Below are positions 2,898 to 32,837 of a stretch of DNA of 64,000 bases, piece after piece. Under the pieces are notes generated by a model, which saw nothing but the letters and a program-made list of their open reading frames with translations, had not been told where the DNA came from and ran no database searches. Every line of letters starts with the position of its first letter. The first letter of the stretch is position 1. The DNA comes from Phascolarctobacterium sp. GTDB taxonomy: Bacteria; Bacillota; Negativicutes; Acidaminococcales; Acidaminococcaceae. The stretch spans positions 62,001-126,000 of the forward strand of contig NZ_JAUNOQ010000003.1 in the NCBI RefSeq assembly GCF_030531065.1, in the 5' to 3' direction. Made by a program: the position numbers and the translations under genes.

Positions 2898-5051
2898 TCA
2901 ATTTTCCACCAGCACGCGATAAAGACCCGCTTGCGCCATCAGCTCGTCATGAGTGCCGCGCTGTATTATCTTGCCCTTATCCATAACGATAATTTCGTCG
3001 CAATCGCGAATCGTACTCAACCTATGGGCTACAATTAAGCAGGAACAGCCGCGCCTGCGGATATTGTCCAACACTCTTTTTTCCGTAAGCGGGTCTAAAG
3101 CGCTTGTCGCCTCGTCCAAAACCAGCATTGCCGGATTATGCACCAAAGCGCGCGCCAGCTCCATTCTTTGCCGTTGCCCGCCGCTGAAATTCTTGCCGCC
3201 TTCGTCTACAGGCGCTTCATAACCGCCGTCAAGCTGCATAATAGTTTCGTCGATTTCCGCGTCTATCGCGGCTTCGCGCACATCCTTCGGCGTAATATTT
3301 TCGTCAAATAAGGTTATATTATCGCGTACCGAACCGGAAAAGAGAAATATTTCCTGATTAACAGCCGCGACGCCGTACGAAAGCAAATTTCTATTTAACT
3401 GTTGCCGTTCATAGCCGTCAAATAAAATTTTCCCGTCCCACGGTTTTTCTTCCCCTAAAACTAATTTTGCAACCGTTGACTTACCGCAGCCGCTGCCGCC
3501 TACCAAAGCGACCCAACGCCCCGGCCGCAAGTGCAAATTAAAATTTTCCAGTAACGGCGCAGATAATTTACTGTAGCCAAAAGTAAGGTTTTCCATACGC
3601 AGCTCGCCGCTAAAATAATCCTTCTGCGCCGTATTTTCCGAAGAATTATATAAGTAATCGTCCTTAGGGTAATTATAAATATCGTCCAAACGCCTCAGCA
3701 TCATTTCGGTATTTTGCAGCCCCTGTCCTAAGGACAGCAATTTATTAACAGGCTCAGAAAAATTTCCCATAAGCATTTTAAAAGCTATAAAAGTACCGGC
3801 TGATAAAACTCCGTCCATGATTTGAAAGCCGCCGATAGTCATAATTAAAGCCACGTTAACGCCGCCCAAAAATTCCGGCAGCAAGCTTACGTTTTGACTG
3901 ATAAACTGAATCTTTTGGCTTTCCTTCATCATTTTATTTTGCGCCCCGGACCATTTAGCAAAAAAGTCCGCTTCATTGCCGTTAGCCTTTAACGTATCGA
4001 TGGACTGCAAGCCGTTGATGGTAATGGCCTGCAAAACGCCGTTTTCCTGCAGCATGAGCATGGCTTTTTCCATAATAAAGCTGCGCATTTTAAACAAAAC
4101 GGCAATATTGAGAGCGCTGAACAACAAGCCAATCAGCGTAAGGGTTATGCTGTACTGGAACAGCAGCGCCAAATAAAAAATAGCAATAAACGTATCTATA
4201 ACGGCAGTAGCTGCCTGCCGCGTCAGCATATCGGCTACCGATAAATTAAAGCCTATTCTGGAAGCTATTTCTCCCGCATGACGCTGCTGGAAAAAGCTGC
4301 CTGGCAAATGCAAAATATGCCACAAGAATCTTCCGGAATCCTGCAAGGTCAGCTTCGTTTGCCAGCGCGTCAGGCTCCATGAACGCAGACCCACTAAAAA
4401 AGCCTGCACTATACCCGTAAACGCCAACGCCAATAAAACGTTAAAATTCCAATCGGCATGACGCATAGTGATTACGTCGTCTAAAAACGTTTCGCTGATT
4501 GCAGGTATAGCTAAACCCGGCACGACCATGCACAAGCTTAAAATACTGATAAACAACGTCGCTTTGCGATCAGCTAACAGCTTCTGCCCTAAAACGCGAC
4601 GTATATTATATTTTTTGCCGCCTGGCTTAAACGCCGCATCGGGCTCCATGTGCAGCGCGATACCGGTATACGAATAGCAAAATTTTTTAAAATCAATCGT
4701 TCTGTGCCCCGCCGCAGGGTCGTTAAGATAAACCTTATCACCCTCTATTCCCTCTAAAACTACAAAATGATTAAATTCCCAATGCAAAATTGCGGGCCAC
4801 GGTTTATCGCGCAAGCTTTCCGCCTTCCAGCGAAATCCGCTCGCCTTCATATTATAATTTCTCGCGGCTTTTACAATGTTCAGCGCCTTACTTCCGTCGC
4901 GGCCGATGCCGCAGTCCTGACGTAATTGCTCCAATGGCACCCACAAGCCGTAATAAGCCAAAACCATAGCTAAAGACGCGGCGCCGCATTCCACAGCCTC
5001 CATTTGCAGAATGGACGGCGTTTTAACATGTTTTCTTTTTTTATCAGTCAT
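2898..5051 (-). CDS. NHLM-type C39 peptidase-containing ABC transporter (ABC1)
   Basis: Bifunctional exporter that would cut precursors after a double glycine and move the released part across the inner membrane. The N-terminal C39 peptidase shows its catalytic Cys in VECGAAS near residue 22, the His in FNHFVVLEG and the Asp in NDPAAG. A membrane domain follows, then an ATPase with Walker A GGSGCGKST near 517, FSGGQRQR near 624 and LVLDEATSALD near 647. I chose the ATG at 5051 (717 residues). It overlaps the end of the preceding adaptor gene by a few bases, which is typical of translational coupling. An upstream in-frame ATG at 5111 would add 20 residues unlike the family. The double-glycine precursors in the same operon are its obvious substrates. 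Confidence 0.92.
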   Translation of the reverse strand: MTDKKRKHVKTPSILQMEAVECGAASLAMVLAYYGLWVPLEQLRQDCGIGRDGSKALNIVKAARNYNMKASGFRWKAESLRDKPWPAILHWEFNHFVVLEGIEGDKVYLNDPAAGHRTIDFKKFCYSYTGIALHMEPDAAFKPGGKKYNIRRVLGQKLLADRKATLFISILSLCMVVPGLAIPAISETFLDDVITMRHADWNFNVLLALAFTGIVQAFLVGLRSWSLTRWQTKLTLQDSGRFLWHILHLPGSFFQQRHAGEIASRIGFNLSVADMLTRQAATAVIDTFIAIFYLALLFQYSITLTLIGLLFSALNIAVLFKMRSFIMEKAMLMLQENGVLQAITINGLQSIDTLKANGNEADFFAKWSGAQNKMMKESQKIQFISQNVSLLPEFLGGVNVALIMTIGGFQIMDGVLSAGTFIAFKMLMGNFSEPVNKLLSLGQGLQNTEMMLRRLDDIYNYPKDDYLYNSSENTAQKDYFSGELRMENLTFGYSKLSAPLLENFNLHLRPGRWVALVGGSGCGKSTVAKLVLGEEKPWDGKILFDGYERQQLNRNLLSYGVAAVNQEIFLFSGSVRDNITLFDENITPKDVREAAIDAEIDETIMQLDGGYEAPVDEGGKNFSGGQRQRMELARALVHNPAMLVLDEATSALDPLTEKRVLDNIRRRGCSCLIVAHRLSTIRDCDEIIVMDKGKIIQRGTHDELMAQAGLYRVLVEN

Positions 5052-6003
5052 TGCGCAACCAATTGCTGAGCTTGCCGAAAACTTTGCTGATAGGAGGCTT
5101 TCTTTCGACAATTATCATCCCGCTGTAAACGCTGCCGGGAGTAACCATAATATTATTATCAATCACCGACGACCATAAATATCCGCTGCTATTATCCTTA
5201 TCACGAATCAATTCCACATGGATTTCCATCGCCGCTCCGTCGCATTTTTCCAACGCCACGTCCGCCAGCGCTTTGTTGCCTAACGTCTTGACCATACGCT
5301 CCGCGCTCACGGGATATTCCGAAGTTTCGCGTACTATCCCCAGCAAGCTACCGTATTCCGAAGCGTCGATATCGTTAGGCTGCATTTGCACAACCATGCC
5401 CGGCTTAACCTTTTTGCCGCCTGCAGCCGGAGCATACATTACGCCGTGCATATCGTTGCTCTTCTGGTCGCGGCGAACGGAAAATAAATCCGTTCCTGCG
5501 CCGACAACAGACCCATCGGTTATTTTTATTTCGCTGACGATGCCGTCGAACGGGCTGTACACATAACGGTAAGTATCGTATTTTTGCGTAATACTATCGT
5601 ATTGCGCTAAGCTCGACATAGCGTCGGTATTTGATTTTGCCAGGCCGATACTATATTCGGCCATAATTTTATCCTCCGCCAAATCCGGCTGCTGCAATAC
5701 CGCCAGCAAATCTCCCGCCTTAACGCGCGCGCCTTTATGAACATAAATTTTTTCTATCTGTCCCGAACTCAAACTTTCTACATTAACTATACCGCCGGAA
5801 TCGACGAGCATACCAAAGCCGTTGACTTTTTCGGCAATAACGCCGAAGACAGACCACACGCAAACGGATAATACCAATAACGCTACCGCAAGCAAAGCCG
5901 CCCAGCCGCCCAAAGGAATAATCGTCAGCAGGGAATCCATCTGATCCGGATTGCGTAAACGCTCCAAGGCCTGACTGCTAAAAAGCTTCTCTGATTCCTT
6001 CAC
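5044..6003 (-). CDS. NHLM-type HlyD-family secretion protein
   Basis: Periplasmic adaptor (membrane fusion protein) of 319 residues. It has one N-terminal membrane helix (about 30-52), followed by a lipoyl/barrel-sandwich half (GQIEKIYVHKGARVKAGD). The matching second half, SPFDGIVSEIKITDGSVVGAG, comes after an unusually short connector, so there is little or no alpha-helical hairpin. This compact form is characteristic of NHLM-system adaptors. It overlaps the genes on both sides (26 bp with the upstream adaptor, 8 bp with the peptidase transporter), so the export genes form a tightly coupled block. In a diderm cell it would link the ABC transporter to the periplasm or an outer-membrane channel encoded elsewhere; no TolC-like gene is in the window. 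Confidence 0.88.
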   Translation of the reverse strand: MKESEKLFSSQALERLRNPDQMDSLLTIIPLGGWAALLAVALLVLSVCVWSVFGVIAEKVNGFGMLVDSGGIVNVESLSSGQIEKIYVHKGARVKAGDLLAVLQQPDLAEDKIMAEYSIGLAKSNTDAMSSLAQYDSITQKYDTYRYVYSPFDGIVSEIKITDGSVVGAGTDLFSVRRDQKSNDMHGVMYAPAAGGKKVKPGMVVQMQPNDIDASEYGSLLGIVRETSEYPVSAERMVKTLGNKALADVALEKCDGAAMEIHVELIRDKDNSSGYLWSSVIDNNIMVTPGSVYSGMIIVERKPPISKVFGKLSNWLRND

Positions 6004-7165
6004 GCCTGTACACCTCCACCTTCGCGCCTTCCTGCAAGCCTTCCTTGCCGGAAATTATAACCTCGTCGCCTTCCTCAAGCCCACTTAAAATTTCTGTATA
6101 TGTATCGTTAGCAGCGCCCGTAGTTACCTTTCGTAACTGCAGGCGTTTGTTTTCATCCACAATAAACGCTGCCTTTCGCTCATCGTCGATATTGAAAAGC
6201 GCTTTATTATCTACGCACAACGCTTTATAGCTAATAGCGTCGACTATTTTTACATCTCTATATACGCCCGTTTCCAAAAGCCCGGCTCTGTTGTCAACCT
6301 TCCAAGTGATAGTATAAATAGGAGCCTCCACATCTAAAGGCGGTTCTGTTTCCGCCAACGCAAGCTTAACTTTATTTTCTATATTCTGCCCCTGCAGCTT
6401 ATATGAAGAATCAAAACCTTTTTCCAAAAAATCCGCTTCATTAAACACTAAATATTGTTCCGATTCGGACAAGCGTAAATTCTTGACGTCCCTATAGGAA
6501 AGATTTTTTTGAAAATAAAGCTCGCGAAAATCTCCGATTAAAGCGACGGACTGACCCTTCTGCACATAATCGCCTTTTTCGGCGTATAAGAGTAGCGCTT
6601 CGCCGTCCAGCGGAGCTGTAACCGCCTGATTGCCGTGCATATTTTTTAATTGCTGGTATTCCGCTTCCAAAACCTCTACCTCGGTGGCGGCGGCTTTAGC
6701 CGCCGCTATATAAGAATCGTATTCCGAACGCGAAACTGCGCCAACCTTCACCAACGTCGCCCTGCGCTCCTTATCCGCCTCAACCTTGACATATTCCGCC
6801 TGCGCCGCCGCTATCTTGCTTTGCAGCTTGGACAATTCCAAATCCATATCGTCGTTATGGATTTTATATAAAACCTGCCCGCGTTTTACCGCTTGGCTCT
6901 TTTGCACATAAACGTCCGTCACCCTGCCTTCAACGCGGGCGACGACGTCCGTCATGGTTTCGGAAAATAATTTTATACTGCCATAGCTGTACTGAGGCGC
7001 CAACATCCTGTAGCCTACTTCGGCTACTGTCAACGAATGAGCGCGTTCCTCCATCATTTTAGCTATGTTGTTTTCACTTTTAATATTCAAATAAAACCCA
7101 TAAACAACGAGCGCAGCGCTCAACGCAATAACGCCGCCCACCGCGTAAAGAAAATATTTTTTCAT
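5978..7165 (-). CDS. HlyD/RND-type periplasmic adaptor protein
   Basis: A second adaptor, 395 residues, with an N-terminal membrane anchor (about 5-25). A lipoyl half-motif near VEGRVTDVYVQKSQAVKRGQ is followed by a coiled-coil hairpin (about 130-195) and the second lipoyl half, TAPLDGEALLLYAEKGDYVQKGQ. Beta-barrel and membrane-proximal domains end in ILSGLEEGDEVIISGKEG. This is the full-length adaptor architecture, in contrast to the compact NHLM adaptor that follows it, so this export block has two different adaptors. It begins about 90 bp after the last short double-glycine peptide. Which transporter it pairs with cannot be told from sequence. Confidence 0.85.
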   Translation of the reverse strand: MKKYFLYAVGGVIALSAALVVYGFYLNIKSENNIAKMMEERAHSLTVAEVGYRMLAPQYSYGSIKLFSETMTDVVARVEGRVTDVYVQKSQAVKRGQVLYKIHNDDMDLELSKLQSKIAAAQAEYVKVEADKERRATLVKVGAVSRSEYDSYIAAAKAAATEVEVLEAEYQQLKNMHGNQAVTAPLDGEALLLYAEKGDYVQKGQSVALIGDFRELYFQKNLSYRDVKNLRLSESEQYLVFNEADFLEKGFDSSYKLQGQNIENKVKLALAETEPPLDVEAPIYTITWKVDNRAGLLETGVYRDVKIVDAISYKALCVDNKALFNIDDERKAAFIVDENKRLQLRKVTTGAANDTYTEILSGLEEGDEVIISGKEGLQEGAKVEVYRREGIREAF

Positions 7166-7254: not shown

Positions 7255-7482
7255 TCACCATTCTCCTGAACGTAAAAGGTTTTCCACCTTTTTCAAGTTA
7301 CTATCCTCCAACTCCTTTTTCATTTTGTTTAACATAAAAGTATCCGTCGAGTAGCTGCCGCCTAAGCCCGCTCGTTTCACCCCGCTACATTCTATACTGC
7401 CGCCGCCTGCTACCGCTTCCATTTCTTTTTCCGTAAGCTGTTCATTTTTGGCATTGGCGATAAATTCTTTGTTCCCCTCCAT
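7255..7482 (-). CDS. Double-glycine leader peptide precursor A (C-terminus probably frameshifted)
   Basis: Small precursor of 75 residues. Residues 1-28 form a leader, NKEFIANAKNEQLTEKEMEAVAGG, nearly identical to those of the two neighbouring short peptides and ending in the double glycine recognised by C39 peptidases. The rest (one Cys, several Gly, then a charged helix-like stretch) is unlike the other two cores. The reading frame stops at SGEW, and the conserved V-V/I-W-K-T ending lies just beyond in another frame. The start follows an AAGGA-type ribosome site. It is the last of seven precursor genes before the export genes. Function of the mature peptide is unknown; bacteriocin or signal are both possible. 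Confidence 0.75.
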   Translation of the reverse strand: MEGNKEFIANAKNEQLTEKEMEAVAGGGSIECSGVKRAGLGGSYSTDTFMLNKMKKELEDSNLKKVENLLRSGEW

Positions 7483-7512: not shown

Positions 7513-7689
7513 TTAATTCTTGGTTTCCCAAATTACCGACTTTTTCGCTTCCTCCTCTAGTATCCTAATCAGCTCTTTGGGTTTCTGAAACTCCAGCTTA
7601 TAGAGGCTGCCGCCTGCTACCGCTTCCATTTCTTCGTTCGTAAGCTGCTCGCTTTTAGCATTAGCGATAAATTCTTTGTTCTTTTCCAT
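7513..7689 (-). CDS. Double-glycine leader peptide precursor B (58 aa)
   Basis: Short gene read directly from the minus strand. The 58-residue product begins MEKNKEFIANAKSEQLTNEE and continues to the double glycine at residues 26-27. The leader is almost identical to those of peptides A and C. The 31-residue core has no Cys and is Leu/Glu/Lys-rich, ending AKKSVIWETKN. The start has an AAGGA ribosome site 8-9 bases upstream. The K-S-V-I-W spacing at the end equals the Lys-x3-Trp spacing found in streptide, which is suggestive because a radical SAM enzyme sits in the operon, but no crosslink can be claimed. Too short for many gene callers. Confidence 0.8.
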   Translation of the reverse strand: MEKNKEFIANAKSEQLTNEEMEAVAGGSLYKLEFQKPKELIRILEEEAKKSVIWETKN

Positions 7690-7717: not shown

Positions 7718-7873
7718 TTAATCCTCGGTTTTCCAAATTACCGGCTTTTTCACTTCGCTCAAGAAAGCTGGCGCCTTAACTCTCAACTTTAAGTCGCTAC
7801 CCCCTGCTACCTTTTCCATTTCCTCGTTCGTAAGCTGCTCATTTTTGGCATGATCGATAAATTTTTTGTCCAT
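7718..7873 (-). CDS. Double-glycine leader peptide precursor C (51 aa)
   Basis: Short gene read directly from the minus strand. It encodes 51 residues: MDKKFIDHAKNEQLTNEEME, then a double glycine at residues 24-25, then a 26-residue core ending VKKPVIWKTED. It has an AGGAGGTAATGA-type ribosome site directly upstream of the ATG. Leader and C-terminal motif are shared with precursors A and B, while the middle of the core differs, so these three form a paralogous family. It lies 21 bp after the last crystallin-like precursor and is probably on the same transcript. The product is likely cut and exported by the C39 transporter of the operon. Confidence 0.8.
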   Translation of the reverse strand: MDKKFIDHAKNEQLTNEEMEKVAGGSDLKLRVKAPAFLSEVKKPVIWKTED

Positions 7874-7893: not shown

Positions 7894-8526
7894 CTAAAAA
7901 TCCCTCGCCACGAATTTTCCACAGCCGGGAGCGTGGATATCGCATTTATTGCATTTCTTGCCGCCGGCCACCGCCAGCAAATCATCGTCCGTTAATTCTT
8001 CTTTGATGCCGAAGTTAATGCGCACGTCGTCCTGTCCCAAAGTAAACAGCAGAACCTTAGCGTATCCGTCAATTTTTTCGTCGACTACGCATTCCTCGTT
8101 TTCAAAAATTCTTACGGCGTGTCCATCCTCAACATTACCTGCAAACACCGCGTAAAAACCGCGCGGTACGATTACTTTATCGAACTCTTTTAATTCCGCC
8201 GCCATGTATTCGCCCTCCGGCAACGCTTTAACAGCCTCGCCTTTGATTCCTTGGGCGTAAGTTTCTATCACCGCTAATTTAGGAACAAAAGGAATTTTTA
8301 TGTCCGCACAATCCTTATCGACGGTAAAATTTTTGCCGCTGCCGTCGGCATTTTCATAAAACGCCGCTCGCGTAAAATCCGCAACCTTAACGGAACCGAC
8401 GACGGAAAAATCTCCGGCGCTATACTCGCCGCGTTTTAAGCGATTGCAATTTCCCTGATAAAAAGCTTTAGCAAAAATTTGCACAAAGCTCGCGCTTTCG
8501 CTGCTGTTTATAAAACGCATTGCCAC
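7894..8526 (-). CDS. Beta/gamma-crystallin-like peptide precursor 1 (core C-x2-C-x6-C)
   Basis: A 210-residue precursor. Residues about 13-72 and 84-150 each read like a beta/gamma-crystallin domain: YQGNCNRLKRGEY and FYENADGSGKNFTVDKDC in the first, IKGEAVKALPEGEY and VPRGFYAVFAG in the second. A leader-like stretch follows (FGIKEELTDDDLLAVAGG, glycines at 188-189) and then a 21-residue Lys/Cys tail with CNKC and PGC. The tail is the likely mature peptide and the double glycine the C39 cut site. It is the most diverged of the three two-domain copies. No signal peptide is seen. That the crystallin-like part works as an oversized leader or carrier is inference; it could also be a separate product. 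Confidence 0.8.
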   Translation of the reverse strand: MAMRFINSSESASFVQIFAKAFYQGNCNRLKRGEYSAGDFSVVGSVKVADFTRAAFYENADGSGKNFTVDKDCADIKIPFVPKLAVIETYAQGIKGEAVKALPEGEYMAAELKEFDKVIVPRGFYAVFAGNVEDGHAVRIFENEECVVDEKIDGYAKVLLFTLGQDDVRINFGIKEELTDDDLLAVAGGKKCNKCDIHAPGCGKFVARDF

Positions 8527-8555: not shown

Positions 8556-8996
8556 TCATCTGGTTACAAGATGTTCGATGCAAAAACGATAGCTGTCATC
8601 CAGCGGTCCTTTATGCTCGGCGCATAAGGAGGGGCAGTCGGTAACAAATATTCTGCAGCTCTCCTTGCGTTTGCCGCCAGCCACAGCTAATAAATCCTCG
8701 TCGCTCAGTTCTTCCTTAATACCTAAATCGATATGTATACCTCGCTTTCCCAGGTTGAATATTAAAATTTTATTATATTCGTCAAGATGCGAATCGATTA
8801 CGCACGCTTCATTTTCAAACACCCTGACCTTATTCTTATCCTCTTGGTGAGCAACAAACGCCGCATAAAAACCTCGCGGCAATAATATTTTGTCAAACTG
8901 TTTTAGCTCTTCCGCAAGGTATTCCCCTTCCGGCAACTGTATTATATTTTCTCCGCGCACGCCTTTAGCGTAACTGTCTGCCTCGTAAACTAACAT
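8556..8996 (-). CDS. Single-domain beta/gamma-crystallin-like peptide precursor 2 (38-residue core)
   Basis: A 146-residue paralogue that lacks the first crystallin-like domain of its neighbours. It starts directly at the second one (MLVYEADSYAKG, LPEGEY, LPRGFYAAF, VRVFENEACV). It keeps the leader end LGIKEELSDEDLLAVAGG (glycines at 107-108). The core is the longest and most divergent: 38 residues with four Cys. A good AAGGAG ribosome site 6-7 bases before the ATG indicates a genuine gene and not a broken copy. It shows that one crystallin-like domain plus the LSDEDLLAVAGG segment may be enough for processing. Confidence 0.78.
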   Translation of the reverse strand: MLVYEADSYAKGVRGENIIQLPEGEYLAEELKQFDKILLPRGFYAAFVAHQEDKNKVRVFENEACVIDSHLDEYNKILIFNLGKRGIHIDLGIKEELSDEDLLAVAGGKRKESCRIFVTDCPSLCAEHKGPLDDSYRFCIEHLVTR

Positions 8997-9082: not shown

Positions 9083-9727
9083 TTATAACCCTACCTCGAT
9101 ACCAGTACGGTTACCGCAGAAAGTGCCGCTGCCGGCGCCCGCTTTAATTTTATTGCCGCAGCCCTTGCCGCCGGCCACTACCAGCAAATCGTCGTCCGTC
9201 AATTCTTCTTTGATGCCGAAATTGATGCGCACGTCGTCCTTACCTAAGGTGAACAACAAAACCTTAGCGTATTCGTCAACCTTGCCGTCAATAACGCATT
9301 CTTCGTTTTCAAAAATTCTTACGGTGTGCTCGTCCTCGTTGTTACCGGCAAATACTGCGTAAAAGCCGCGCGGCACGATTACCTTATCGAACTCTTTTAA
9401 TTCCGCCGCCGTATATTCTCCCTCCGGCAATTCTTTGGCAACGTCGCCCTTAAATCCTTTGGCATAAGTTTCTACCACCGTTAATTGCGGCGCAAAAGCT
9501 ACCTCCGCCGCAGCGCAGTCCTTGTCCACGATTACGTGCTTGCCGCTGCCGTCGGCATTTTCATAAAACGCAACGCGCGTAAAATCAGCAACCTTAATTG
9601 AGCCTACAGCCTTAACGTCGTCGTATTCGCCGCGCGCCAGCTTGAGCGCTTCGCCCTGGTACCCAGCCGCCGCAAAAATTTCCGCAACGCTTTCCGTCGC
9701 CACCGTGCTCACAAAATTCATTTTCAT
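9083..9727 (-). CDS. Beta/gamma-crystallin-like peptide precursor 3 (CGN...CGN core)
   Basis: A 214-residue precursor very similar to precursor 4 up to the double glycine (residues 186-187). Domain one covers about 13-71 (GYQGEALKLARGEY, FYENADGSGKHVIVD). Domain two covers about 82-148 (LPEGEYTAAELKEF, VPRGFYAVFAG, RIFENEECV). The leader end reads LTDDDLLVVAGG. The 27-residue core is Gly-rich and contains two CGN motifs (KGCGNKI and TFCGNRT). High identity to precursor 4 in the crystallin part, with an unrelated core, suggests recent duplication with diversification of the tail. It has a GAAGG ribosome site nine bases before the ATG. Confidence 0.8.
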   Translation of the reverse strand: MKMNFVSTVATESVAEIFAAAGYQGEALKLARGEYDDVKAVGSIKVADFTRVAFYENADGSGKHVIVDKDCAAAEVAFAPQLTVVETYAKGFKGDVAKELPEGEYTAAELKEFDKVIVPRGFYAVFAGNNEDEHTVRIFENEECVIDGKVDEYAKVLLFTLGKDDVRINFGIKEELTDDDLLVVAGGKGCGNKIKAGAGSGTFCGNRTGIEVGL

Positions 9728-9811: not shown

Positions 9812-10459
9812 TTATTTTTTCACATTGCCAATGGAATCGTTACCGCAGGAATCAAACGGATTGCAATCGCCCATCTCAATATCGTTGCCGCAGGCTTTGC
9901 CGCCAGCCACTGCCAGCAAATCGTCGTCCGTCAATTCTTCTTTGATGCCGAAATTGATGCGCACGTCGTCCTTGCCCAAAGTGAACAGCAAAACCTTCGC
10001 GTATTCGTCAACCTTGCCGTCGATAACGCATTCTTCGTTTTCAAAAATTCTTACGGTATGCTCGTCCTCGCTGTTACCGGCGAACACCGCATAGAAGCCG
10101 CGCGGCACGATTACTTTATCGAACGCTTTTAATTCCGCCGCCGTATATTCGCCCTCCGGCAATTCTTTAACGGCGTCGCTCTTAATTCCTTTAGCGTAAG
10201 TTTCTACCACCGTTAATTGCGGTGCAAAAGCTACTTCCACCGCAGCGCAGTTCTTGTCCACAACGACGTGCTTGCCGCTGCCGTCGGCGTTTTCATAAAA
10301 CGCAACGCGCGTAAAATCCGCAACCTTGACGGAGCCCACGGCTTTGACGTCGGCGTACTCGCCGCGAGCCAGCTTTGCCGCCTCTCCCTGATATCCTGCC
10401 GCTGCAAAAATTTCCGCAACGCTTTCCGTAGCTACTGTGCTCACAAAACTCATTTTCAT
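9812..10459 (-). CDS. Beta/gamma-crystallin-like peptide precursor 4 (CGN...C...CGN core)
   Basis: First precursor after the maturase, 215 residues. Residues 13-71 and 82-148 fit two beta/gamma-crystallin domains by their alternating G/Y-x-G...GEY and V-x-FYEN patterns. Residues 150-187 (FTLGKDDVRINFGIKEELTD onward to the double glycine) look like the docking and cleavage part of a RiPP leader. The 28-residue core has three Cys (ACGN, GDCN, DSCGN). The 42-bp gap to the radical SAM gene, with an AGGAGG site in it, suggests the two are expressed together. I know of no described RiPP precursor with crystallin-like domains; that judgement is from memory only. Confidence 0.8.
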   Translation of the reverse strand: MKMSFVSTVATESVAEIFAAAGYQGEAAKLARGEYADVKAVGSVKVADFTRVAFYENADGSGKHVVVDKNCAAVEVAFAPQLTVVETYAKGIKSDAVKELPEGEYTAAELKAFDKVIVPRGFYAVFAGNSEDEHTVRIFENEECVIDGKVDEYAKVLLFTLGKDDVRINFGIKEELTDDDLLAVAGGKACGNDIEMGDCNPFDSCGNDSIGNVKK

Positions 10460-10501: not shown

Positions 10502-11875
10502 CTAAACAAATTCTTCCGCTTGCGCCATATTCTCATTTATCGCGTATAATTGCAGCCGCTCGCGTAAATTATTTTTCAAGCTGCGGCAGGACGCGCCATA
10601 AGCTCCCGTTTTATCAGCGCAGCCCCCTGCGCACTGCGGCAGCGCTATACATTCGTAGCATTCCTCATATTTCAAGAGCGGCCGCGTCAGCCAATTCTGA
10701 TAAAGCTTGTTCTCATAAATTTTTTGGCAATCGCCGATATTGCCGACGCTCAGCTTGGCGTCGGATACCGTGTTCCAGCATTTATGCACACTTCCGTCCG
10801 GCAAAATCACAAAGCTGTTTCTGCGCACAGCGCCGCACAAGCTGCCCAATCTTATCGGCAGCCCCGGCGTATGTAATTTTAAAGCGACGGCTTTCTTTAA
10901 AAGTTTCAGCTCCAACGCGCTAAAATTTTCCAAGCTCATTACTTCGTCCGCATTTAAACCGGCCGTCCCTATTCCGATATCCACGGGCGCAAAATAAACG
11001 TTAAAATTTTCGCGCCCGCCAAAGCCCTGCTCGCTTAAATAGAGCAATAAATTTTCTATACTGTCCTTATTGCGTTGGTCAATATTCACTCTGATATTAA
11101 AATTCAGCTTGTTTTCAAGAACTACATTCCGCAAATTCTCCATAATCGCGGCAAACGTAGCTCCGCCTCCTTTTAAATAACGGCGGCTGTCGTGCGCCTG
11201 CGCGTCTCCGTCTATGGTTATCTGCACGGAACTGATTTTGCATTGCGCCAGTCTGTCCGCTACCGCAAACGTCAAGTTGAAACCGTTCGTTACGATACTC
11301 GCGCTGTAATCGCAGCCGTTATTTTCACATAGAGATAATATTTTCCCTGTCAAGCTTTCGATAACGGGCACGGCCAGCAAAGGCTCGCCGCCATACCACG
11401 TAATATGCACGCCTTTTTTATCGTAAATATTATTCCCAATGAAATTAAGAACTTGCTCCTGCACTCTTTGCTCCATAGGTTTGCTTGCGTCATGCAATCC
11501 CTGAAAGCAATAATCGCAGGCAAAATTGCAGGCCATGGTAGGAGCGACGGTTAAAGAAAGCGCTTTTTCCTTTTTATTTTTTAAGATAGCAATAGCTTGC
11601 TCGAAAAGTTTTAATTCGTCGCTGGCTTTTTTCAGGACGAACATTTCATGGATAAGGCTATCCAAAAACTTACTTAAATAAAGCTGGCTTGGCGCAAGCC
11701 TCGCCGCCTCCCGCTGGCTGCCTCCGCCCGCCAATAAATCGTAAATTGCTTTTTCCAAAGCCGTCCAGCGTTTGCAAACGCCGCCCATGCCGCTGTAAGC
11801 GAGCGCTCCGTCCTGCAGCGGCAACAAAATATTAAACTTCGACGGCTTATATAAATTGATATTGCGGTAAATCAT
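10502..11875 (-). CDS. Radical SAM/SPASM peptide maturase
   Basis: A 457-residue radical SAM enzyme, expected to reduce SAM and modify the precursor cores of this operon. An N-terminal region of about 100 residues could contain a peptide-binding (RRE/PqqD-like) domain. The canonical CxxxCxxC for the [4Fe-4S] cluster is at Cys116, Cys120 and Cys123 (ACNFACDYCFQG), followed by WYGGEPLL. The C-terminal SPASM region has many Cys (GSLCGAVRR, HKCWN, EECYECIALPQCAGGCAD, ASCRS) for auxiliary clusters. This architecture is typical of thioether-forming sactipeptide and ranthipeptide enzymes and of sulfatase maturases. No sulfatase is present, while Cys-rich cores lie just downstream. Bond type and residue specificity cannot be read from sequence. 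Confidence 0.9.
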   Translation of the reverse strand: MIYRNINLYKPSKFNILLPLQDGALAYSGMGGVCKRWTALEKAIYDLLAGGGSQREAARLAPSQLYLSKFLDSLIHEMFVLKKASDELKLFEQAIAILKNKKEKALSLTVAPTMACNFACDYCFQGLHDASKPMEQRVQEQVLNFIGNNIYDKKGVHITWYGGEPLLAVPVIESLTGKILSLCENNGCDYSASIVTNGFNLTFAVADRLAQCKISSVQITIDGDAQAHDSRRYLKGGGATFAAIMENLRNVVLENKLNFNIRVNIDQRNKDSIENLLLYLSEQGFGGRENFNVYFAPVDIGIGTAGLNADEVMSLENFSALELKLLKKAVALKLHTPGLPIRLGSLCGAVRRNSFVILPDGSVHKCWNTVSDAKLSVGNIGDCQKIYENKLYQNWLTRPLLKYEECYECIALPQCAGGCADKTGAYGASCRSLKNNLRERLQLYAINENMAQAEEFV

Positions 11876-11913: not shown

Positions 11914-12822
11914 TTATTTTGCTGTTCTATCTTTATAGAAGGTAGTTAATTTTATTTCTTTGCTGCCCGGGAACGAAACCGGCAGCTTCCCCAACATATT
12001 GGTAAGTTTTTTATCGGCCGCGTCAATATTAAAAATTACTTTCTTTATTTTGTCAGGCGAGGCGGCTACATATTCTAAAGTTTTCAGCAAAGTCCAGACG
12101 CCCACGCCGGTATTTTTATAGCTGTCCAAACAAGCGCGGCAAGATACTTCCGCCACCTGAGGATTATTTGGCAATTCCGTTAAAGCGAGATAACCCACCG
12201 TTTTCTCATTTTTAATTACTAAAAAGCTTCCCTCGTCGATTCTCTTACGCCTTTCGCTAAACGGATCCAGATATGAGGGATAAGCTTTTCCTATTTCATC
12301 TTTAATTTGCCGTAAACTTTCCGCGTCGGCTTCGCAGAAATTTTTTATAACGAAGCGGCGTTTTTTCATAAAAGAATCCAATCTGTCGCCTTCTTCAGCC
12401 ATATATTTATGAAAAACGCTTCTGGTATGAGGCGTACTGGTGTTGATAACGCTGATGGATTCTTTTTTTACGTAAAACCCTGACTTTTCAACAACCCGGC
12501 GCAAAGCAGCGTTTTTCTCCACAACAAATTCCAAAGCAACAGAGCGGCAGCCTTGAGCGAAAAAATTTTCCGCAGCATAAAGCAAAAGTTTTTGCGCAAT
12601 CCCCTGATTACGCATTTCTTTCTTGACAGAAATATATTTAATCATGCCTACGCCATCGGCGCTTATTTCGCCAAAAACCGCTCCGCCATATTGTTCGCAA
12701 TCGTCTACGGCAACAAAGACTTCGCACTCGCCCTTTAAAGCAATTTTTGCATAATACAGAAACAAATTGCTTTCATCAAAAGCCAACGCTTTTCCTTTTA
12801 TTAAATAATTTTGCAAAATCAT
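11914..12822 (-). CDS. Tandem GNAT-family acetyltransferase
   Basis: First gene of the peptide operon, 302 residues. Residues about 1-130 form a complete GNAT domain with the acetyl-CoA motif NQGIAQKLLLYA and the C-terminal GFYVKKE strand. Residues about 150-295 are a second, weaker GNAT-like fold (FVIKNFCEADAESLRQIKDE, DSYKNTGVGVWTLLKTLEYV). Possible roles are N-acetylation of a peptide product, which could protect the producer or finish the peptide, or an unrelated acetylation. The operon position favours a link to the peptides. The ATG is preceded by an AGGTG-type site, and the promoter lies about 65 bp upstream. Confidence 0.8.
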   Translation of the reverse strand: MILQNYLIKGKALAFDESNLFLYYAKIALKGECEVFVAVDDCEQYGGAVFGEISADGVGMIKYISVKKEMRNQGIAQKLLLYAAENFFAQGCRSVALEFVVEKNAALRRVVEKSGFYVKKESISVINTSTPHTRSVFHKYMAEEGDRLDSFMKKRRFVIKNFCEADAESLRQIKDEIGKAYPSYLDPFSERRKRIDEGSFLVIKNEKTVGYLALTELPNNPQVAEVSCRACLDSYKNTGVGVWTLLKTLEYVAASPDKIKKVIFNIDAADKKLTNMLGKLPVSFPGSKEIKLTTFYKDRTAK

Positions 12823-12886: not shown

Positions 12887-12915
12887 ATTATAACACGCTT
12901 GTCCCCCCCCGACAA
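12887..12915 (-). promoter_or_regulatory. Promoter of the peptide operon with a G8 tract in the spacer
   Basis: On the minus strand TTGTCG (12910-12915) and a perfect TATAAT (12887-12892) are separated by exactly 17 bases, seven of them G continuing a run of eight. The G run is enclosed by a perfect 7-bp inverted repeat (GCTTGTC/GACAAGC), which may be an operator. A homopolymer inside the spacer means slippage would change the -35/-10 distance, as in known phase-variable promoters. Confidence 0.75.
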
Positions 12916-13078
12916 GCTTTTACTACGCAAAAAATCCTTACTTTCTCTAGCTTGTCGTCATTTCATTTTTCCTAAGCCAACATAATGAAAACCTCACATA
13001 CAAGTACAAGCATAAAATATTTTGCAAACCGCATGGCGTCCTGTTTATTTTTAATCTTTGGCAATAAAGGTCAGCGTT

Positions 13079-13121
13079 AAAAATTTCGTCAATAAATTTT
13101 CACAAAAAAGTATTGACAAAA
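13079..13121 (+). repeat. Right copy of the flanking repeat, in the tRNA-Arg promoter
   Basis: Near-identical to 92-133 (two mismatches and one gap). Here the repeat is followed by an intact TATAAT and the tRNA-Arg gene. Together the two copies bracket the peptide operon at a distance of about 13 kb. Confidence 0.75.
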
Positions 13122-13141
13122 GCGCCGTCCCTAGTTATAAT
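13113..13141 (+). promoter_or_regulatory. tRNA-Arg promoter
   Basis: Consensus TTGACA (13113-13118) and TATAAT (13136-13141) with a 17-bp spacer, 13 bases before the tRNA. Confidence 0.85.
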
Positions 13142-13154
13142 TAATTACGTTGTT

Positions 13155-13231
13155 GGCCTCATAGCTCAGCTGGATAGAGCGTTTGACTACGAATCAAAAG
13201 GTCGCAGGTTCGAGTCCTGCTGAGGTCACCA
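13155..13231 (+). tRNA. tRNA-Arg (anticodon ACG)
   Basis: A 77-base tRNA including an encoded CCA. The acceptor stem GGCCTCA pairs with TGAGGTC; the D arm, the anticodon loop CTACGAA closed by TTTGA/TCAAA, and the T arm GCAGG-TTCGAGT-CCTGC are all present. The anticodon ACG reads CGN arginine codons after A-to-I editing. It lies on the strand opposite to the neighbouring genes and is the insertion-prone landmark next to the peptide operon. Confidence 0.95.
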
Positions 13232-31913: not shown

Positions 31914-32570
31914 TTACTTAAAGCCTTCCTTACTAGCAGCAGCCGTCGTCGCTATTTGCCAAATTTGCAAAAAAGTCTGCGTTAAGGAGCTGTAATTTTT
32001 CATATCAGCCAGCGCCGCCCGCAATGAAATGTATTTGACGCCTTGCTTGCGCAAAAAAGCATTTTCGTCGGGAACAATATAAATTATTTCAGCTTCATCA
32101 CGAAACTTTTCCTGAGCAGCTTCCACACGCTGTGCCTGCTGAGCGTAGCGTTTTTTATTGCCTTTGACAATTTCCATATAATCCCCATACGTCTCGGAAA
32201 ATTCACCGGCTTCGGCCAGACTCCGGTATTTTTCAAGTTGTTCTCCTTTCACAGACCCTTTGTCTGTTTTCAATTCCACTAAATACATTTTATCGGCGCA
32301 GCTCAGCAAATAATCAATACAAAAAGAGCGCTTATTATCTTTGTCTATATCAACACGATGGCTAAGTATAGGATATTCCTTAACAACAAATTTAAAATCT
32401 TCGCAGTTCTCTTTGCCCAAAGCTTTACTTACAAGTTCCACGACTATTTCCGGCAATAATAACGTATCGAAGACTACTTCTGCTTTAAATCTAGGCGTTC
32501 CATAATCAATCTTTAATTGCTCCAGAAACCTTTCCCAATATTGTTTATTTGCCAATACATTTTCATACAT
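31914..32570 (-). CDS. PD-(D/E)XK nuclease-like protein
   Basis: A 218-residue protein with the core of a PD-(D/E)XK nuclease fold. A first acidic element is in VDIDKDNKRSFCIDYLL and the E-x-K element in MYLVELKTDKGS, followed by a Gln-containing helix (KGEQLEKYRSLAEAG). The C-terminal part has IIYIVPDENAFLRKQGVKYISL. Such domains occur in restriction, defence and repair enzymes, and also in non-catalytic proteins. Its position before a lipoprotein gene and behind a promoter like that of the peptide operon is unexpected for a housekeeping nuclease. GGAGG lies eight bases before the ATG. Confidence 0.65.
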   Translation of the reverse strand: MYENVLANKQYWERFLEQLKIDYGTPRFKAEVVFDTLLLPEIVVELVSKALGKENCEDFKFVVKEYPILSHRVDIDKDNKRSFCIDYLLSCADKMYLVELKTDKGSVKGEQLEKYRSLAEAGEFSETYGDYMEIVKGNKKRYAQQAQRVEAAQEKFRDEAEIIYIVPDENAFLRKQGVKYISLRAALADMKNYSSLTQTFLQIWQIATTAAASKEGFK

Positions 32571-32652: not shown

Positions 32653-32680
32653 ATTATATCACCTCGTCCCCCCCAATCAA
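32653..32680 (-). promoter_or_regulatory. Second poly-G promoter (before the nuclease-like gene)
   Basis: Minus strand: TTGATT (32675-32680), 16-bp spacer starting with seven G, then TATAAT (32653-32658). The spacer shares GGGGGGGAC-A/G-AG and the following TG with the peptide-operon promoter, beyond what a chance G run would give. Confidence 0.65.
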
Positions 32681-32683
32681 GCT

Positions 32684-32706
32684 AAAATCCGCATTGAGCG
32701 GATTTT
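32684..32706. repeat. Perfect 9-bp inverted repeat
   Basis: AAAATCCGC and GCGGATTTT with a 5-base loop, followed on the plus strand by ATTTG. It lies just upstream of the poly-G promoter and may be a small terminator or an operator. Confidence 0.5.
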
Positions 32707-32837
32707 ATTTGAGCGCTGACGCGCTTACGATAAACTAGCGTCTTAAAGCAAATTACTAGTCATTACAAATCCAGTTTTGCCAAAAATTTTTAGAATAAAT
32801 CTTTTAAGTAAATTTTTTGCCGCAATTTTTAGGCTAA

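Follow-up and report, generated by a model that had tools for sequence, protein, structure and literature searches.

A G-run promoter element shared by surface genes in Phascolarctobacterium and other Negativicutes: a probable common operator

The analysed stretch, hereafter the window, comprises 64,000 nucleotides of a Phascolarctobacterium sp. contig (NZ_JAUNOQ010000003.1, positions 62,001 to 126,000) and contains a promoter whose minus-strand sequence, read from 12915 to 12887, is TTGTCGGGGGGGGACAAGCGTGTTATAAT. The first-pass annotation had described here -35 and -10 boxes exactly 17 bp apart, with eight G at the -35 edge and in the spacer which also form the loop of a perfect 7-bp inverted repeat, and all of this was confirmed: the promoter reads TTGTCG-17-TATAAT on the minus strand, one G of the tract (12910-12903) lies inside the -35 box and the other seven in the spacer, and the repeat is GCTTGTC-G7-GACAAGC. 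Absent from that annotation were an upstream inverted copy of the promoter-proximal arm, a second element of the same kind in the window and a genome-wide family of such elements. The features that concern us are the following.

12887-12892, minus strand: -10 box TATAAT (6 of 6 consensus positions), preceded by TGT at 12893-12895, which makes it an extended -10
12910-12915, minus strand: -35 box TTGTCG (4 of 6 positions)
12903-12910, minus strand: G8 tract, whose length sets the -35/-10 spacing
12897-12917, minus strand: 7-bp inverted repeat GCTTGTC-G7-GACAAGC, perfect solely in the window copy among those aligned
12911-12918, minus strand: near arm AGCTTGTC, overlapping the -35 box and abutting the G run
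12949-12956, minus strand: far arm GACAAGCT, a perfect inverted copy of the near arm, the two lying about 38 bp apart from start to start
11914-12822, minus strand: first gene, GNAT acetyltransferase-like (PF00583)
10502-11875, minus strand: radical SAM/SPASM RiPP-maturase-like protein (best NCBIfam match TIGR04463, below its cut-off)
9812-10459, 9083-9727, 8556-8996, 7894-8526, 7718-7873, 7513-7689 and 7255-7482, minus strand: seven peptide genes
5978-7165, minus strand: HlyD/RND-type adaptor
5044-6003, minus strand: NHLP bacteriocin-system HlyD (TIGR03794, above cut-off)
2898-5111, minus strand: C39 peptidase/ABC exporter of the NHLP family (TIGR03796, above cut-off)
32653-32680, minus strand: second window element, TTGATT-16 bp-TATAAT, with G7 at 32674-32668
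32683-32707, minus strand: hairpin TAAAATCCGC-TCAAT-GCGGATTTTA, directly upstream of the second element

Judged by gene content, the genes behind the window promoter appear to form a RiPP-like export operon. Each of the seven peptide genes carries a leader-like VAGG motif, and those of them that were scanned matched no Pfam or NCBIfam family. At 146-215 aa, four of the seven tandem peptides are long; their N-terminal part is repeated, a DLL[AV]VAGGK leader-like motif lies near the C-terminus, and they would be unusual precursors for a C39/NHLP exporter. The radical SAM protein had no close relative in 40 related genomes, the next best match showing 29% identity, so that an orthologous comparison of the window promoter was not possible. 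The promoter heads the peptide operon to which it had been assigned, but the element itself belongs to a family of surface-gene promoters and is no speciality of peptide operons. The second window element fronts a 218-aa ORF (31917-32570) with no Pfam match. Near the first, on the plus strand, a perfect consensus promoter TTGACA-17-TATAAT (13113-13141) stands ahead of a tRNA at about 13155-13228.

This 2.37 Mb genome (2,365,984 bases in 27 contigs searched) contains at least 37 copies of a shared promoter element, the window site among them. The element approximates [G]TCTTG[C/T]-G7/8-[T]ACA-n-GTGn-TATAAT, that is, a TTG -35 usually set in a CTTG arm, G7 or G8, usually (T)ACA or ACG, and then the -10 box. 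The 17-mer of the window promoter occurs once exactly and at eight more sites with up to two mismatches, all eight at two; five further places at three mismatches bring the total to 14. Two looser patterns returned 22 matches (the gapped pattern) and 14, against 1 and 0 in backward controls. On the 17-mer counts and the gapped pattern, the window site with its repeat lies far beyond chance. When the context of each of the 56 distinct runs of seven or more G in the genome was read, 36 fell within an element (30 G7, 6 G8) and, with a G6 copy (L039), make up the 37; the remaining 20, among them one G9 and one G10, lie outside it. We regard it as good as shown that the element is genuine, is conserved and serves as a promoter of surface genes. 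The initial site set comprised 35 sites of this genome and 43 of relatives, from which L107, L108 (two sites), L110, L112, L130 and L113 were excluded from later counts as chance-like or lacking ACA, and L135 additionally from the folding, G-number, close-pair and arm-mirror counts.

By coordinates, the element lies upstream of, and on the same strand as, 15 of the 17 PF03797 autotransporter genes of the genome; it is missing at C7:11216, where no G run precedes the gene, and at C16:32176, where there is a G7 run but no clear -10. A Pfam scan of 30 first genes behind the element returned nine autotransporter beta-domain proteins, three YadA-type (trimeric) adhesins, four heads of sugar-transferase operons and one each of a ShlB-type transporter, an SLH porin, a TonB receptor, a sulfatase, a dynamin-like protein and a type III DNA methyltransferase, while eight gave no Pfam match, among them several truncated because the retrieved sequence ended. 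Capsule or exopolysaccharide operon heads number six if the closely similar L048 and L194, both outside the Pfam scan, are counted, and OmpM-like porins and the RiPP-like export operon are further targets in this genome. Some targets are not surface genes, namely the dynamin-like L062 and the methyltransferase L152. At L152 (G000:C4:174969, minus strand) the gene behind the element encodes a type III restriction-modification methyltransferase; genes of this kind are phase-variable elsewhere. Autotransporters, capsule genes and type III methyltransferases are the usual phase-variable kinds, and the target genes of the element resemble known phase-variable sets. Two layers of control meet at L060 (G000:C20:68857, minus strand), where a cobalamin riboswitch, a TonB receptor and ABC transporter genes are all driven by the element. 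Leaders of about 330-580 bases with similar motifs separate promoter and autotransporter gene at L009, L020, L029, L146 and L198, and gave no Rfam match. To our knowledge, control of the outer surface is hardly known in diderm Firmicutes, common bacteria of gut and rumen. With 15 of 17 autotransporters and several capsule operons marked by one easily recognised promoter, there is now a list of co-regulated surface genes and a candidate for their regulator, and it can be asked concretely whether these commensals vary tract length as pathogens do.

Throughout the genome, the number of G sets the promoter geometry. Runs of six, seven and eight G place 15, 16 and 17 bp between -35 and -10, and the spacing equalled G + 9 in 32 of 35 sites as measured by script; at the other three the script had chosen an earlier TATGAT, and they fit with TACAAT as the -10 (three class-T sites and L125 were registered by eye, alignment A1). 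Classes that have a spacing of 16 bp in common differ in their flanks: TCTTGC goes with G8 in the Selenomonas family, CTTGACN with G7 in this genome. Inside any one class, it is the G run that varies in length. Selenomonas-family sites in alignment A1 carry G7, G8 or G9, plus a G11 ahead of a flagellin gene (L126), which gives 19 bp. Over 110 sites we counted 74 G7, 28 G8, five G9, two G6 and one G11, with search patterns that favour runs of at least five G and impose no upper limit. We compared 63 close pairs (up to 20% difference over 71 bases) and found unequal G numbers in 24; these pairs are paralogs and species, not strains, and the ungapped comparison misses pairs with indels elsewhere. 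L066 and L074, from one genome, are two substitutions and one G apart, and L105 and L109, counterparts of each other in two species, carry G7 and G8, respectively. The number of G has therefore changed over evolution, both between paralogs and between species.

A further regularity lies upstream. The 7-8 bases ahead of the G run, which contain the -35, are often mirrored, as in GGCAAGCT/AGCTTGCC (L173), GCAAGCC/GGCTTGC (L159), TCGCAAGA/TCTTGCGA (L153) and, at many other sites, GCAAGAC/GTCTTGC. In the open-loop classes 37-44 bases separate the arms, whereas in other classes the arms make up tighter hairpins. A perfect inverted 7-mer of a site's own arm was present upstream in 43 of 107 distinct sites, against 2.3 expected from shuffled upstream sequence; 64 of the 107 lack a perfect mirror, and some sites (L022, L025, L146, L152, L185, L198, L131, L133) show no clear arm. 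When arms were swapped between sites, the upstream stretch fitted its own arm better than that of another site (p ~1e-9). For the 60 bases upstream, folding z scores averaged -2.45 over 35 own sites and -2.42 over 35 of relatives; 22 and 20 sites, respectively, fell below -1.5. Since arm sequences change while their pairing stays, the comparison points to selection, acting on protein half-sites or on a DNA hairpin. An Rfam search near 20 sites found only a cobalamin riboswitch and tRNAs, which indicates that the upstream arms do not belong to an RNA family listed there. The 7-bp dyad around the G run had been put forward as a possible repressor site, but other copies retain only CTTG...CAAG or less of it, and the better-conserved pairing is that with the arm about 38 bp upstream.

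Beyond this genome, a strict pattern was found in 8 of 59 genomes of the family and in 22 of 380 of the class. A sequence-only core model built from 65 sites (E<=0.01) detected the element in 99 of the 380 class genomes and in 27 of 102 genera; it scored 18 candidates per genome, and large per-genome counts are accordingly lower bounds. In a collection of named genomes, a strict pattern matched 11 loci: six of Phascolarctobacterium, one of Selenomonas ruminantium and four chance-like. Through identical stretches, the genomes G036, G023 and G025 connect to the Phascolarctobacterium records and G267 to that of Selenomonas, which puts the window in Phascolarctobacterium or close to it. The same kinds of gene, assigned by eye from sequences, stand behind the element in other genera and the Selenomonas family; they include OmpM-like porins, ShlB-type transporters, MBOAT acyltransferase-like proteins, sugar transferases, autotransporter-like proteins and a flagellin. 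A search of open-licence papers listed nothing on the element in Negativicutes.

Several explanations could account for a G run framed by repeats. Sites of CsoR/RcnR/FrmR-type regulators are inverted repeats around a G tract, and the shapes GCTTGTC-G7-GACAAGC and CTTGT-G7-TACAAG, whose dyads flank the G tract, would suit an operator for such a metal or formaldehyde sensor. PF02583 has one copy in our genome (G000) but is absent from the element-bearing genomes G012, G013, G025, G026, G032, G057 and G058, for which reason we dropped this explanation as extremely improbable. A mobile REP- or MITE-like hairpin unit carrying an outward promoter and spread by transposition would agree with type A copies, which have two tandem hairpins and the promoter in common, and with the hairpin CAAAAGTGCTCGATGCACTTTTG, which occurs nine times. 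All nine directly precede a promoter, however, and no copies were found outside a promoter context; moreover, the sites are uniformly oriented before a gene, mostly a surface gene, their flanks beyond the core differ while the pairing is kept, the element is conserved across families and a search of viral contigs with two patterns for phage-borne copies gave no match. Transposition is a very unlikely origin.

Classical phase variation has more to recommend it. Slipped-strand change of the G run would switch each surface promoter on or off through the -35/-10 spacing, on the model of Neisseria porA, opc and fetA or of Treponema tpr; the first-pass annotation had suggested that the window tract may act in this way, with Neisseria porA/opc as its precedent. 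Its logic of spacing holds structurally as far as the sequences tell: G number sets the spacing across the family, the run is the length-variable part, 24 of the 63 close pairs differ in it, and the flagellin promoter with G11 has reached 19 bp. Gene content, with autotransporters, capsule operons and a type III methyltransferase, makes the explanation more attractive, and in tpr promoters the poly-G permits transcription only at <=8 G (PMC7864442). The shortness of the runs makes it less so. The G numbers of the 110 sites are short and narrow, peaking at seven, under the 9-10 at which Campylobacter poly-G tracts peak, and tracts near the cut-off of seven may mutate at <1e-5 (PMC6321876). The window tract has eight G, against a family mode of seven and a yardstick for high-rate slippage of >=8, usually 9-10, and 16 and 17 bp are both workable spacings. 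Switching of this kind is possible, though we hold it the less likely explanation. Equally tentative is a wider proposal, a Negativicutes phasome built on one promoter, which would combine a slippable G7-8 spacer, a hairpin or mirrored arm, XRE regulators and a common controller; its scope, which we put forward with the same reserve, might take in nearly all autotransporters, several capsule operons, porins, the type III methyltransferase and the RiPP-like export operon. If it were true, each cell could drift to its own combination of surface structures.

Near counterparts are known in Neisseria and Treponema. In Neisseria porA, fetA and opc, a G/C run lies in the spacer of surface-gene promoters and its length is thought to act through the promoter (PMC2791445). 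The likeness lies in the homopolymer between -35 and -10, in the surface genes and in a tract length that changes the spacing without compensation; unlike those cases, here one conserved element occupies 37 promoters, with conserved flanks, upstream arms and runs of 7-8. Treponema pallidum tprE, G, J and L are paralogous outer-membrane genes with a promoter poly-G for which <=8 G is permissive (PMC7864442), but they belong to a different phylum and their promoters carry no conserved arm or operator-like context in the description available there. Repressor and repeat-length change act together in Neisseria nadA/NadR (PMC2791445), whereas the repeat there is TAAA and lies upstream of the promoter.

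We hold it probable, with some reserve, that the element is a shared operator-promoter of surface and contingency-type genes, that an XRE-type regulator probably serves it and that slippage adds a slow form of tuning. A common factor likely reads the element: a trans-acting DNA-binding protein would recognise the arm or arms and the G run over the -35 and spacer, and would control adhesins, capsule and the RiPP-like operon jointly. The G run would be held near 7-8 because, as we propose, this factor's site includes it and because it keeps the spacing at 16-17 bp. A slip of a single G would shift the spacing among 15, 16 and 17 bp, and could provide a slow, heritable tuning of single promoters atop the shared control.

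That the factor is an XRE (Cro/CI-type) protein is a fair guess. In several related genomes an XRE-type HTH gene lies directly behind the promoter and ahead of an autotransporter, as in autoregulated XRE operons; unlike these, our genome lacks such an arrangement, and binding to the element is putative. About 20 XRE genes from four genera lie within ~150 bases of an element when coordinates are compared by eye, and among 30 XRE loci, of which 26 were placed by script, five of the 26 have an element <=350 bases upstream. Relatives of the XRE protein encoded behind the promoter occur in 17 of 25 element-bearing genomes of the family against 3 of 34 others (Fisher p 2.9e-6), and as genomes of the same genus are not independent such p values are generous. 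Eight of the 25 have no XRE match, two of them being G012, which carries 11 elements, and G013, which carries 10, and the three XRE matches in our own genome have no element in front. NadR of Neisseria is another type of repressor than this candidate. One relative of the surface-locus XRE regulators, L281 (G000:C19:95947-96228), lies ahead of a dnaX-like gene and is possibly an ancestral chromosomal copy.
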